Source: Noviherbaspirillum suwonense
GTDB taxonomy: Bacteria > Pseudomonadota > Gammaproteobacteria > Burkholderiales > Burkholderiaceae_D
Assembly: GCF_900182955.1 (NCBI RefSeq)
Contig: NZ_FXUL01000008.1
Location: 124,001 to 188,000 of the forward strand
Length of the DNA: 64,000 bases
Direction of reading: 5' to 3'
Below the pieces are notes generated by a model that did not search any database, was not told the origin of the DNA, and was given only the letters and a program-made list of their open reading frames with translations. A program made the translations under genes and the position numbers. This document shows, piece after piece, positions 1 to 6,379 of this stretch. How positions within the stretch are numbered: position 1 is the stretch's first letter; every line of letters starts with the position of its first letter.

Positions 1-27
1 GCCGGGAGCGGCGACACCGCTCCCGGC
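1..27. other. Perfect 11-bp inverted repeat (hairpin) at the window edge
   Basis: Bases 1-11 (GCCGGGAGCGG) pair perfectly with 17-27 around a 5-nt loop. There is no following T-run, so this is either an intrinsic-terminator-like or attenuating hairpin between an unseen upstream gene and the small peptide gene at 57, or a 5'-UTR structure of that gene. The upstream context is cut off. Confidence 0.55.
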
Positions 28-56
28 AGCGCCCACCGACCACGACGGAGACCGAC

Positions 57-347
57 ATGAGCACATTACGCATCAGCGACCTTGAAACGAGCCGCGTCCT
101 GGGCAGCCAGGCGATGTCCACCATCCGCGGCGGCGATGGCGCCCGCTGGGTGTATGGATGGATCGCGGCATTCAATCCGCTGGCAGGCCGCGCCAGTTCG
201 GCGGCAGTAAATTTTGTGCAGAACAACACGATCTTTATGGCCGAGCAGATGACCAACCAGTTCCTGCAGGTCGGCGTGAACAACACCGGCGCCGCTGCCA
301 ACATCAACGTGATGCCCACCACCGTCGGCATCACGCAGAAACAGTAA
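57..347 (+). CDS. Small secreted peptide with double-glycine leader (candidate C39-exporter substrate)
   Basis: 96 aa with a clear SD (GACGGAG) 7 nt before ATG. Residues 1-26 read as a double-glycine leader ending STIRGG; hydrophobic residues sit at -4 (Ile), -7 (Met) and -12 (Leu) from the Gly-Gly, the spacing that C39 peptidases recognise. The predicted mature part (~70 aa) starts DGARW. It contains no Cys, has a small hydrophobic N-terminal stretch and then Asn/Gln/Thr/Val-rich sequence (NNTIFMAEQM, VNNTGAAANINV), so it is not lanthipeptide-like. A C39-peptidase ABC exporter lies 2.2 kb away on the other strand, making this its most obvious substrate (inference). The family is not recognised; it could be a bacteriocin-like, signalling or surface peptide. 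PP2C follows on the same strand after 121 nt. Confidence 0.72.
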   Translation: MSTLRISDLETSRVLGSQAMSTIRGGDGARWVYGWIAAFNPLAGRASSAAVNFVQNNTIFMAEQMTNQFLQVGVNNTGAAANINVMPTTVGITQKQ

Positions 348-468
348 GCGCCGCGCGCAAACTTGAGCCGGGGTCAAACATTGGTCGGGTAGCCTTGCGC
401 CGGCCGCAAATTCGCGCCCTTATACTGGTCCTTCGCATCGCAACCCAGCGTGCTTTCCGGAGGCTCAG

Positions 469-1233
469 ATGGCGCAAGCTTGCCCATTCCGTTGGCAGTC
501 CGCATCCTGCTCGCATGTCGGCAGGATACGCAGGATCAATGAAGACTCCCTGCTCGACCAGCCTGAACGCGGCCTGTGGGCAGTGGCCGACGGCATGGGC
601 GGACACACGCTGGGCGATGTCGCAAGCCGGATGGTGGTCGACGCGCTGGCCCGCCTGCCCGACGTCACCGCCAGCGACATCCGCCTCTGCCTGAGCGAGG
701 TCAACCAGCGGCTGATGAAGGAAGCGGCGATGCGCGACGTCCAGCTCATCGGCAGCACCGCGGTCGTGCTGATGGCCGCCGACGGCCGCTGCACCTGCAT
801 CTGGGCCGGCGACAGCCGCATCTACCGCTACCGCGACGGCATGCTGCAGCAGCTCACCCGCGACCACAGCCATGTCGAGGACCTGGTGTCCCGCGGGCTG
901 CTGACGCCGGACGAGGCGAGCCGCCATCCCGGCCACAACCTGATCACCCGCGCGATCGGCGTGGCCGACCTGCTCGAACTCGAGGAGACCGACACCGAGG
1001 TCCAGGACGGCGACATGTTCGTACTGTGCAGCGACGGCCTGAGCAATGAAGTCGATGCGCCGCAGATCGCAGCGCTCCTGGCGCCGCATGACTGCCGGCT
1101 GGCCGCGCAGCGGCTGGTGGAGGAAGCGCTGGCGCATGGCGGGCGCGACAATATCACGGTGGTCGTGGTCATGGCGGTCGACCCCGCGCATGACGAGATG
1201 ACGGCCATCAACCCGGCGCTGGACCGGGGCTAG
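469..1233 (+). CDS. PP2C-family serine/threonine protein phosphatase
   Basis: 254 aa, SD CCGGAGG before ATG. All metal-binding PP2C motifs are visible: RINEDS near residue 22, VADGMGGH near 39, GSTAVV near 97, WAGDSRIYRY near 113, LCSDGLSNE near 185 and GRDNITVV near 224. It is a cytosolic Stp/PrpC-type Mn/Mg phosphatase with no membrane or sensor domain. It presumably removes phosphate from Ser/Thr residues of a local regulator, but no Hanks-type kinase is encoded in the window. It lies downstream of the double-glycine peptide gene, and its stop codon overlaps the stop of the convergent sigma-54 activator by 4 bases. Confidence 0.93.
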   Translation: MAQACPFRWQSASCSHVGRIRRINEDSLLDQPERGLWAVADGMGGHTLGDVASRMVVDALARLPDVTASDIRLCLSEVNQRLMKEAAMRDVQLIGSTAVVLMAADGRCTCIWAGDSRIYRYRDGMLQQLTRDHSHVEDLVSRGLLTPDEASRHPGHNLITRAIGVADLLELEETDTEVQDGDMFVLCSDGLSNEVDAPQIAALLAPHDCRLAAQRLVEEALAHGGRDNITVVVVMAVDPAHDEMTAINPALDRG

Positions 1234-5500: not shown

Positions 5501-5578
5501 GTCCGGCGACAGCGGCGACAGGATTTCCACCGTCGCCAGGAAGCCGGCCAATGACTGCCCGGCGGACGGTGTGCTCAT
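2519..5578 (-). CDS. Peptidase C39 ABC exporter with two N-terminal cNMP-binding-like domains
   Basis: 1019 aa from ATG 5578. Order: CNB-like domain 1 (~20-125), CNB-like domain 2 (~160-265), coiled linker, C39 peptidase (~300-430), six-helix ABC transmembrane domain (~445-740), nucleotide-binding domain (~775-1019). The peptidase has the full catalytic set: oxyanion Gln311, Cys317 (EMDCGAACLAML), His390 (YHYVVVY) and Asp406 (VADPALG), so it should cut after Gly-Gly. The ATPase has GRSGSGKTT, LSGGQ (~917) and LLVFDEATSALD (~937). It is an inner-membrane bifunctional exporter/leader peptidase. No HlyD-type adaptor gene is visible; it may lie left of the window. Both CNB-like domains lack the phosphate-binding Arg. 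A GTG at 5611 would add 11 residues but has no SD. Coupled to the bEBP downstream and preceded by the parvulin gene. Confidence 0.93.
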   Translation of the reverse strand: MSTPSAGQSLAGFLATVEILSPLSPDEMERLAADAQSRFYAFGDTVCSAGEPAAGLFIVKSGSVRVFTEENGKEISMGVRKPGEVFAEIAMLREHLHESSVRASGKTELLVLPREAIAPVVAGNMAARDFVTSYVAISSAGGFVTKLFDLRGKVSKPELEELVRSVGVKRIGAGREILKQDSREDRRLYVIRRGEVRLARTEAGAEYPLATLGQGELFGEKACMLRQEQMASVTAVTDVTLLVIPEKTVHQVLERNPKLREVLEDRIRFVERELDRQKRLAERRKRPVVLDLQSRADGYEKLIRRFALVEQAEEMDCGAACLAMLCRHYGISITLGKLRELANVTTQGATLESLAKVGETLGFSTRGMQCTYDSLLGFELPFIVHWEGYHYVVVYGISADRVWVADPALGFRKMSVKEFERGWSGTCLVFTPGQEQAELGAARSPWIRFVGYLKPYKKLLLHLFIATFVIQMLGVVPPLIIQNILDGVIVHQNLSLLHLLILGLIISSVFTQVMTTIRAYLANFMVRNMDFTMMSQFFKHTMSLPFSFFAKRKTGDILARFQENQTIRAFLTESTVTTLLNLLMVFIYFTIMFMYNVKLTLLLMAFVVPIVGLTVVATPRIKAYARDVFTASTDAQAFLMEALGGVETIKGMGMERPVRLKWEKKYVKALETQYRAQTFHIWVGLASQLLNAAVTIAILWVGANLVLSRELTIGQLIAFNALMGSVLGPLMGLVGLWNLLNDAGVAMERLGDVLDIEPEQKPGDVASRVVLPDLQGEVRLENVYFRYGGNETAYVLENISLDIRPGELVAIVGRSGSGKTTLAKLLVGFYPPTEGKIMVDGYEMSVIDKDYYRAQVGYVMQSNLLFSGTIAANIASGDESMDRRRIEEVAKMADAHAFIAKLPLGYEQVVGERGMGLSGGQVQRLCIARALYHDPRLLVFDEATSALDTQSESNIIGNMNEILKGRTAVIIAHRLSTIMRADKILVLYEGAVVEQGRHDELVERRGMYYQLVQKQLSAQ

Positions 5579-5606
5579 GGTGTGTTCATTGCGGTCGGCC
5601 TCCCCC
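5575..5606 (-). promoter_or_regulatory. Strong SD plus 4-codon upstream ORF coupled to exporter start
   Basis: On the minus strand a GGGGGAGG (5606-5599) sits 9 nt before ATG 5589, which opens a 4-codon frame M-N-T-P whose TGA (5577-5575) overlaps the exporter ATG (5578) as ATGA. The SD is about 20 nt from the exporter ATG, too far for direct use, so the exporter may be translated by termination-reinitiation from this mini-ORF. Confidence 0.45.
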
Positions 5607-5626
5607 GCCACGCGCCGCTTGCAGCG

Positions 5627-6379
5627 CTAGCGCGCCTCGATAATGTGTTCCTGCGCCCGCGCCAGCAGCCAGTCCTCGCGCAGCAGGCGGCGGATCTCGG
5701 CGGCGGTGTCCTCGTCCAGCGTCGCCGGATGCCTGCGGTTGACCGCGAAGATCTCGAAGCAGCCGCGCTCGGCCGACTGGAACGGGCCCAGCAGGTCGCC
5801 CGGGGCCGCATTGAACACCTTGGCCTCGACGTCGCTGCGCAGCGAACCGCGCAGCACGCGGCCGATGACGCCGCCGGTAGCGCGCGTCTCGGCCATCGAG
5901 TGCTCGGCGGCCATCTCGGCGAAGCTGTCGGGGTCGTCGGACAGGTAGGCCATCAGCTCGCGCGCCTTGCCTTCGCTGTCGACCACGATATGGCTGATCT
6001 CGATGGCGTCGAAGCGCGGCGAGTTGAGCTTGAAGTAGTCGTCGACGCGGCGCGCGTCGCAGACCGTCTCCAGCACCTTCTCCTGGTACAGCGTGTCGGT
6101 GATGAATTCCTCGAATTCATCCAGGCTCACGCCGATGGCGTCGAGATAGCTGTTCATGTCGGCGGCCCGGTGCAGGCCCCTGACGCGGCGGAACTGGTCC
6201 GCCCGCTCCTGGATTTCCTCGGCCTGCACGACCACGCCCTGCTGCCGCGCCGCCAGGACGGCCACCCGGTCCCTGACGAGCTGCTCCAGCAGTCCGTCGA
6301 ACTGGCCGCCCAGCTTCAGCGTCCTGACAAAGTCGTCGGTGGTGACGACCTTGTCATCGATACGCACTATCGTTGCCAT
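5627..6379 (-). CDS. PpiC/parvulin-type peptidyl-prolyl isomerase, cytosolic
   Basis: 250 aa from ATG 6379 (SD GAGG, 5-nt spacing). The N-terminal half is a SurA/trigger-type helical chaperone region (TLKLGGQFDGLLEQLVRDRV); the parvulin domain spans about 145-235 with ISHIVVDSEGKA, FAEMAAEHSM, GGVIGRVLRGSL and GDLLGPFQS. There is no signal peptide, so it acts in the cytosol. Parvulins of this build occur beside C39 ABC exporters in other bacteria, where they are thought to hold or fold the substrate peptide before export (family knowledge, not proven here). It is the first gene of the minus-strand operon parvulin-exporter-bEBP; 48 nt separate it from the exporter ATG. Confidence 0.85.
   Translation of the reverse strand: MATIVRIDDKVVTTDDFVRTLKLGGQFDGLLEQLVRDRVAVLAARQQGVVVQAEEIQERADQFRRVRGLHRAADMNSYLDAIGVSLDEFEEFITDTLYQEKVLETVCDARRVDDYFKLNSPRFDAIEISHIVVDSEGKARELMAYLSDDPDSFAEMAAEHSMAETRATGGVIGRVLRGSLRSDVEAKVFNAAPGDLLGPFQSAERGCFEIFAVNRRHPATLDEDTAAEIRRLLREDWLLARAQEHIIEAR

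Follow-up and report, generated by a model that had tools for sequence, protein, structure and literature searches.

A genome-wide screen for peptides with double-glycine (GG) leaders was reportedly carried out by Dirix et al. in 2004. In Synechococcus elongatus, the EbfG proteins, which carry such leaders, need the C39 transporter PteB for efficient secretion and act in biofilm, and EbfG1-3 formed amyloid in tests (as stated in the available parts of PMC4997328 and PMC9981879). Here, genes for GG-leader peptides and the genes around them were analysed in Noviherbaspirillum suwonense, in a window of 64,000 nucleotides (the whole stretch whose first lines are given above) and in the rest of its contig, NZ_FXUL01000008.1, called C8. 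Position 1 of the window is base 124001 of C8, C8 coordinates are those of the whole contig, and the genome of 6.45 Mb is labelled G000. Judged by sequence, the window contains the right end of a conserved gene island of about 46 kb (about C8:84,671 to 130,379), of a kind found in soil bacteria, rather than the compact 6.4 kb locus described in an earlier note on this DNA. It can be regarded as a real, conserved secretion island and a form of C39-ABC type I secretion; no description of it was found among the literature matches listed, which were from open-licence full text. The whole proposal, namely a sigma-54-controlled type I secretion island for GG peptides with a putative matrix role, is considered quite probable, and it is carried by its export and regulation parts.

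A 96-residue GG-leader peptide, a PP2C protein, a sigma-54 activator, a C39/ABC exporter and a signal-less parvulin had been recognised in the earlier note, and the open reading frames (ORFs) and Pfam matches agreed with this. The features are the following (CNB, cyclic-nucleotide-binding domain):

57..347, + strand: GG-leader precursor, 96 aa (predicted mature peptide 70 aa), class C by alignment
57..134, + strand: leader peptide of this precursor, 26 codons, ending in GG, predicted cut after codon 26 (from the sequence and the conserved leader)
469..1233, + strand: PP2C-type Ser/Thr protein phosphatase (Pfam PF13672, E 1.6e-14)
1230..2522, - strand: sigma-54 (RpoN) enhancer-binding protein with a GAFTGA motif (Pfam PF00158, E 2.5e-70)
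2519..5578, - strand: CNB-CNB-C39-ABC exporter with peptidase, transmembrane and ATPase domains (Pfam PF03412, PF00664, PF00005)
5627..6379, - strand: parvulin-type (PpiC) protein related to TIGR04500 (Pfam PF00639, E 9.2e-11)

The C39, transmembrane and ABC part of the exporter is like that of PCAT1 and the colicin V type C39 exporters, whereas the CNB domains, the sigma-54 regulation, the phospho-signalling genes and these peptide families are not known from those systems. Type VI secretion is controlled by FHA proteins, kinases and PP2C phosphatases. The same three kinds of signalling protein are grouped with a secretion machine in the island; however, this machine is a type I exporter, and the scanned island proteins included no recognisable type VI component. 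As in the EbfG/PteB system, several small GG-leader proteins accompany a C39 transporter. That system, however, is cyanobacterial, and the accessible parts of its two papers do not mention sigma-54 control, an FHA, kinase and PP2C set or a parvulin. HetC of Nostoc PCC 7120 is similar in domain order, with a CNB domain before the C39-ABC part, where the island exporter has two CNB stretches; in contrast to the island, which has both, neither a GG precursor nor a membrane fusion gene is reported near hetC in the portion of PMC10986499 that was available. HetC is an exporter known without a substrate, whereas the island offers an exporter, likely substrates, promoters and regulators together.

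The island further resembles the TIGR04500/MirC rosaritide pathway, in which the genes for a peptide and a C39 exporter are accompanied by one for a PpiC-like partner and in which MirC, a TIGR04500 protein, was suggested by the authors to be a chaperone (PMC13097080, in part). However, the island parvulin matched TIGR04500 with E 1.4e-25 and 90.3 bits, below the cut-off of 180, and is a relative rather than a member of this family; no graspetide synthetase was recognised in the island. Asn/Gln-rich secreted subunits and a C39 peptidase are also found in the Fap amyloid system of Pseudomonas. According to the text available from PMC5557850, Fap uses Sec, periplasmic FapD and the FapF pore, whereas the island combines GG leaders with an ABC exporter.

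Export of the peptides with cleavage by the C39 domain was well supported by the sequences. The exporter residues Q311, C317, H390 and D406, the Walker A motif and the catalytic Glu were invariant in 91/91 alignment rows, and residues 304-1012 matched PCAT1 (4ry2) with E 2e-136. Among 145 genomes of the family, the exporter (E up to 1e-150) was found in 18, the peptides (profile search, E up to 0.001) in 21 and the membrane fusion protein HlyD (E up to 1e-60) in 21. The peptide-positive and HlyD-positive genomes were the identical 21, and all 18 exporter genomes were included in them. The Fisher p for peptide-HlyD co-occurrence in these 145 genomes was 1e-25, uncorrected for kinship, which was left in all genome and locus counts reported here. 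The earlier note had stated beforehand that peptides never occurring with the exporter would speak against its reading; peptides were present in 18 of the 18 exporter genomes and in 3 of the 127 exporter-negative ones. Its view that the peptide is matured and exported here thus agrees with the intact C39 residues and with the shared occurrence of peptides and HlyD. The HlyD match in genome G021 contained one internal stop. In G015, a genome of the same genus (99% complete), the exporter, the peptides and HlyD were all without a match.

Orthologues of the exporter (77-88% identity) were present in 17 other genomes of the 145, and in all 17 the exporter was adjoined by the parvulin (67-79% identity) and the activator. 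In an order-wide sample of 300 genomes, which partly overlapped the other samples, the peptides (E up to 1e-5) and the parvulin (E up to 1e-40) occurred in the same three, that of the window among them. GTDB r220 contigs were also scanned with the parvulin alignment (tblastn, E up to 1e-3), giving 225 relatives; the best 80 of these, with flanks of at most 10 kb on each side and with some records stopping inside the locus, are called the named loci. They belonged to Noviherbaspirillum, Massilia, Herbaspirillum, Herminiimonas, Paraburkholderia, Caballeronia, Burkholderia, Cupriavidus, Dechloromonas and others without a genus name. The exporter was present at 79 of the 80, the activator at 77 and PP2C at 70; HlyD, an outer-membrane channel (OEP) and an FHA protein were each present at 65, and a caspase protein and DUF4399 each at 60. 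An LRAT protein was found at 57, near the class C peptide gene (for example L090:16675-17295 (+)). The secretion system, which is kept as a whole island, is present in Paraburkholderia xenovorans LB400 and Cupriavidus necator, both well studied and non-pathogenic.

The gene order of the island was studied to the left of the window. The HlyD adaptor, which the earlier note had proposed to seek in this direction, was found 38 kb away at C8:84671-86020, with 69% identity to HlyD of P. xenovorans LB400. To its right lay genes for an FHA protein, OEP, an FHA-GAF-HD-GYP-like protein, two DUF4399 proteins, a caspase-FGE protein and a Ser/Thr kinase. Further GG-leader genes, also anticipated in the note, were located at C8:122745, 123150 and 123756, close to the window, and at C8:97538. 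The copies at C8:97538, 122745 and 123756 (L009:7450-7768, L007:6655-6957 and L007:7666-7968) showed 88-92% DNA identity over about 300 bases, promoter included; these three near-identical peptide genes with a sigma-54 site evidently represent a recent duplication. It was also observed that, in this genome, the left and right parts of the island are set apart by about 25 kb of genes matching no island protein (C8:97,800-122,700).

Across the family, the comparison covered stretches of 18 HlyD-positive genomes out of 21. Both halves of the island lay on a single contig in 13 of them, all 13 with HlyD and OEP, and 12 of the 13 shared a common order: HlyD, FHA, OEP, FHA-GAF-HD-GYP, two DUF4399, caspase-FGE, kinase, peptides, PP2C, activator, exporter and parvulin. 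Between kinase and PP2C, 4-9 peptide genes were counted in these 12 islands, and in four of them two extra peptide genes were located between PP2C and the activator. In the thirteenth genome, G095, the order was FHA-GAF-HD-GYP, OEP, FHA, HlyD, parvulin, exporter, activator and peptides; DUF4399, caspase, kinase and PP2C were not seen within the 20 kb stretch. In the remaining genomes compared, the halves were on separate contigs, or a single half was found or included. Several family islands had a further kinase, the MORN kinase with MORN repeats, next to PP2C. A shorter layout was found in P. xenovorans LB400 and at most named loci of other genera: caspase-FGE, DUF4399, peptide A, OEP, FHA, HlyD, parvulin, exporter and activator, with PP2C and peptide C on the opposite strand. 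A tie of PP2C to class C peptides only (each found in 10 of 18 loci, always together) was considered and dropped, as PP2C occurred in all 12 common-order islands; the apparent pattern arose because the loci had been cut at 20 kb.

The leader of the window precursor was MSTLRISDLETSRVLGSQAMSTIRGG, with I at -4, M at -7 and L at -12. In 20 loci selected because they contain the system or peptide hits (353 kb in all), a regular expression (regex) for such leaders matched 47 ORFs, and in each of five first-order Markov shuffles it matched none; therefore, these GG-leader ORFs are not due to chance. A profile was built from 48 peptides chosen for their conserved leader and was thus weighted towards the leader. 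It matched 274 ORFs in 86 of 98 loci, with up to 31 matches per genome and with the shared leader pattern I-x-D-L....L-D...M...(R)GG. The 12 loci without profile hits were partly too short, and L038, L039 and L045 do hold peptides in longer islands. Homologues lacking GG had been named in the earlier note as evidence that would count against it. By regex, GG was found in 251 of the 274 hits, in line with the note, and not in 23, although this frequency is biased towards GG because the profile is leader-weighted. Among the 23 were 12 with GA, two with GS and nine fragments or misplaced starts, three of these with GG. The genome of the window also contained a stand-alone 62-aa GG-leader gene at C10:133334-133522, the nearest sigma-54-like site of which, GGGCATGATCCATGC, lay 77 nt upstream and was off consensus.

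For classification, 241 of the 274 hits were kept after removal of six named records duplicating family genomes and of unparsable leaders. The regex classes A-D are approximate, as several class A peptides received label B and 23 of the 241 were unclassed. Class A was defined by the motif N-G-N-N-x-A-F and was often the first gene after the promoter, class B by V-N-V-N...L-N-N, and class C by G-A-P-W-V-[YF]-G-W-I...N-[FL]-Y...Q-M; class D was short and basic. The window peptide fell outside all regex classes and was assigned to class C by alignment, with 22-50% identity to other class C cores. Class C cores showed 55-56% mean column identity and were kept across many genera. The mean Asn+Gln content of the cores was 18.5% in class A, 22.1% in B and 20.4% in C, as against 6.9% in 66 long ORFs (at least 200 aa) taken mechanically from C8; the mean Lys+Arg content was 3.5%, 3.4% and 4.4%, respectively, as against 12.5% in the same ORFs. 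The mean net charge of classes A-C was about -0.8 to -1.1, and 173 of 198 cores in these classes were free of Cys. None of the peptides tested scored above a Pfam or NCBIfam cut-off, and two weak Pfam matches had E about 0.03. Class C genes were also seen as fragments in different frames in L043 (about 12,980-13,240, -) and L125 (about 16,000-16,290, -); a different contig of the L043 genome (L194) carried a seemingly intact gene of this class.

RpoN control of the peptide operons was likewise well supported by promoter motifs, consistent with the earlier note's claim that an RpoN activator sets expression. A TGGCA[CT]-type -24/-12 site was found 40-130 nt upstream of 137 of 153 first peptide genes, as against 1 of 88 later genes; its chance rate was 0.006 per searched interval, and its median distance was 75-91 nt, depending on the class. 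In 20 stretches chosen for peptide genes away from the fetched islands, which had just weak matches (33-42%) to island proteins, the site was present at 18 of 21 first and 0 of 23 later genes; one of the three first genes without a site begins too close to where its stretch ends. A gap of 67 nt separates the window peptide gene from an upstream peptide gene on the same strand, which has a sigma-54 site and lies just left of the window; the two probably belong to one operon, with the window gene in second place. Upstream of the promoters, a dyad near TGTTGG-N6-CCAACA clustered about 110-130 and 140-165 nt before the -24 element, the commonest spacings of paired dyads being 31-33 nt. With the position ignored and up to 4 mismatches allowed, dyads were present in 17/24, 22/26 and 37/41 regions, as against 34, 33 and 48% in random sequence, and with up to 3 mismatches in 1/24, 14/26 and 15/41, as against 6, 7 and 10%; the motif was fitted and scored on the same regions. 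The GAFTGA motif of the activator was invariant in 88 rows save one residue in one row. The first approximately 100 residues of the activator gave no Pfam hit, and since it is without a recognised N-terminal domain, it is unlike a classical response regulator.

In PP2C, ADGMGGH and GDSR were invariant in 68 rows, SDGL nearly so, and DN of DNIT was present in 67. The first Ser/Thr kinase has a putative C-terminal periplasmic part, and in the MORN kinase the repeats follow a putative membrane segment (topology by eye). An HD-GYP-like protein in the family islands would fit a link to cyclic di-GMP. In the two CNB stretches of the exporter, His (90/91) and Gln (91/91) occupied the position, placed by eye, at which cyclic AMP-binding domains carry a phosphate-binding Arg. 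Because His and Gln replace it, a ligand other than cyclic AMP is likely. For HetC, in vitro binding of ppGpp is reported (PMC10986499, available part). The parvulin has no obvious signal peptide by eye, and it may be a chaperone or hand-over factor for the precursors, a role suggested because no modifying enzyme was recognised in the island. Control by phosphorylation state, also proposed in the earlier note, may be supposed, with kinases near few named loci.

The gene set, the sigma-54 sites, the intact catalytic residues and the shared occurrence are observed features of the island. We infer activator binding, cleavage, an export route, switching and matrix assembly that would run as follows. 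The RpoN activator would bind the paired upstream sites and fire the sigma-54 promoters of peptide operons, both within the island and at other places in the genome. These operons would supply small GG-leader precursors, which the parvulin probably holds unfolded and passes on. The C39 domain would then cleave the precursors behind GG (or GA), and their mature parts would leave through the exporter, the HlyD adaptor and the outer-membrane channel. Switching of the activator, the exporter or both is probably due to PP2C, the FHA protein, the CNB domains and, in islands that have them, the kinases. Outside the cell, the Asn/Gln-rich, nearly uncharged peptides would most likely self-assemble into matrix or surface material.

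The extracellular matrix role taken alone was given a little less than an even chance in our analysis. It was nevertheless ranked first, before signalling and, in third place, a bacteriocin function, because EbfG1-4, which are needed for biofilm, are the one tested parallel in the papers covered for paralogous, Asn/Gln-rich, weakly charged and mostly Cys-free GG peptides. The composition of the class A-C cores would also suit functional amyloid subunits. If it is true, a C39-ABC route with its own regulation would be added to what is known of the building of extracellular peptide fibres. Several results weigh against the island proposal as a whole. AlphaFold models of the class C and class A cores were of low confidence (predicted local distance difference test 51 and 57), beta-strand periodicity was positive for class B only (mean z 1.8; A 0.6, C 0.5), and class C leaned to helical periodicity (1.2). 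Class D cores had only 6.1% Asn+Gln and a mean charge of +5. The enrichment of the dyads regardless of position was moderate and was absent in one group at 3 mismatches. Three of the 21 genomes with peptides gave no exporter match, namely G021 and G071, both 86% complete, and G062, which is 99% complete. Within the flanks of the 80 named loci, the first kinase was found at 7, the MORN kinase at 1 and the FHA-GAF-HD-GYP protein at 1, the kinases having been mapped in locus stretches only, in family and named loci alike; because of this rarity, the kinases and the FHA-GAF-HD-GYP protein may not be a general part of the island. A broader form of the matrix proposal is accordingly put forward only tentatively and is somewhat doubtful: in Burkholderiales, a sigma-54 regulon with up to dozens of scattered GG peptides and one CNB-gated C39 exporter might build, in a single export step, a fibre or matrix of mixed subunits outside the cell, switched by PP2C and FHA proteins, and Noviherbaspirillum and its relatives might add Ser/Thr kinases and an HD-GYP protein tying it to the state of the cell.

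The peptides may instead be signals that are perceived extracellularly or in the periplasm, possibly by the island kinases, with kinase, PP2C and FHA proteins relaying to the RpoN activator. Two kinds of Ser/Thr kinase in or beside the family islands, the sharing of one island by PP2C, FHA proteins and activator, and the need for HetC, a CNB-C39 exporter, in cell differentiation (PMC10986499, in its available part) are all consistent with this. It is nevertheless unlikely: a genome can have up to 31 profile matches, whose cores are varied and 60-75 aa long, which is unusual for a pheromone; kinases are near few named loci; and no receptor co-varying with the peptides was noticed, none having been searched for. 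If it is true, these bacteria would have a peptide signalling system whose regulon is identified. Bacteriocins or microcins against competitors, for which a GG leader and a C39 exporter are classic (class II bacteriocins in the former case), are an improbable explanation. The paralogues do diverge and class D cores are short and cationic, but classes A-C are near-neutral and rich in Asn and Gln, and many genera retain the class C core; among the recurring ORFs (at least 90 or at least 80 aa) around the peptides no immunity-like gene was noticed, in an inspection that was not a dedicated search and that missed smaller ORFs. Less probable again is that the peptides act at the envelope of the producer itself, or that the island is a pathway for ribosomally synthesised and post-translationally modified peptides with an unrecognised modifying enzyme. 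The TIGR04500-like parvulin points in this direction, MirC being a required partner of a graspetide synthetase in Micromonospora (PMC13097080, in part), as do the caspase-FGE and DUF4399 proteins, which have no assigned role. However, ATP-grasp, radical-SAM and other known modifying domains were not found in the scanned island proteins, and HlyD and the channel argue for export across both membranes.

The occurrence of the exporter beyond the family was also studied. Among 398 genomes of the phylum, two others, both within the order, had close relatives (78%), and six distant relatives (35-38%) came from outside the order. At the six distant loci, the parvulin and the activator were not seen in stretches of 5-6 kb, and a weak HlyD match was present in three. 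Two of these six CNB-C39-ABC exporters (L065-L070) were without the catalytic Cys and two without the His. PADLOC gave cross-hits of common domains only. A plasmid search (E up to 1e-150) returned 10 records, of which four, with 74-78% identity, were large Caballeronia and Burkholderia replicons with no features annotated at the matching place, and the other six, with 35-44% identity, came from Skermanella and cyanobacteria.

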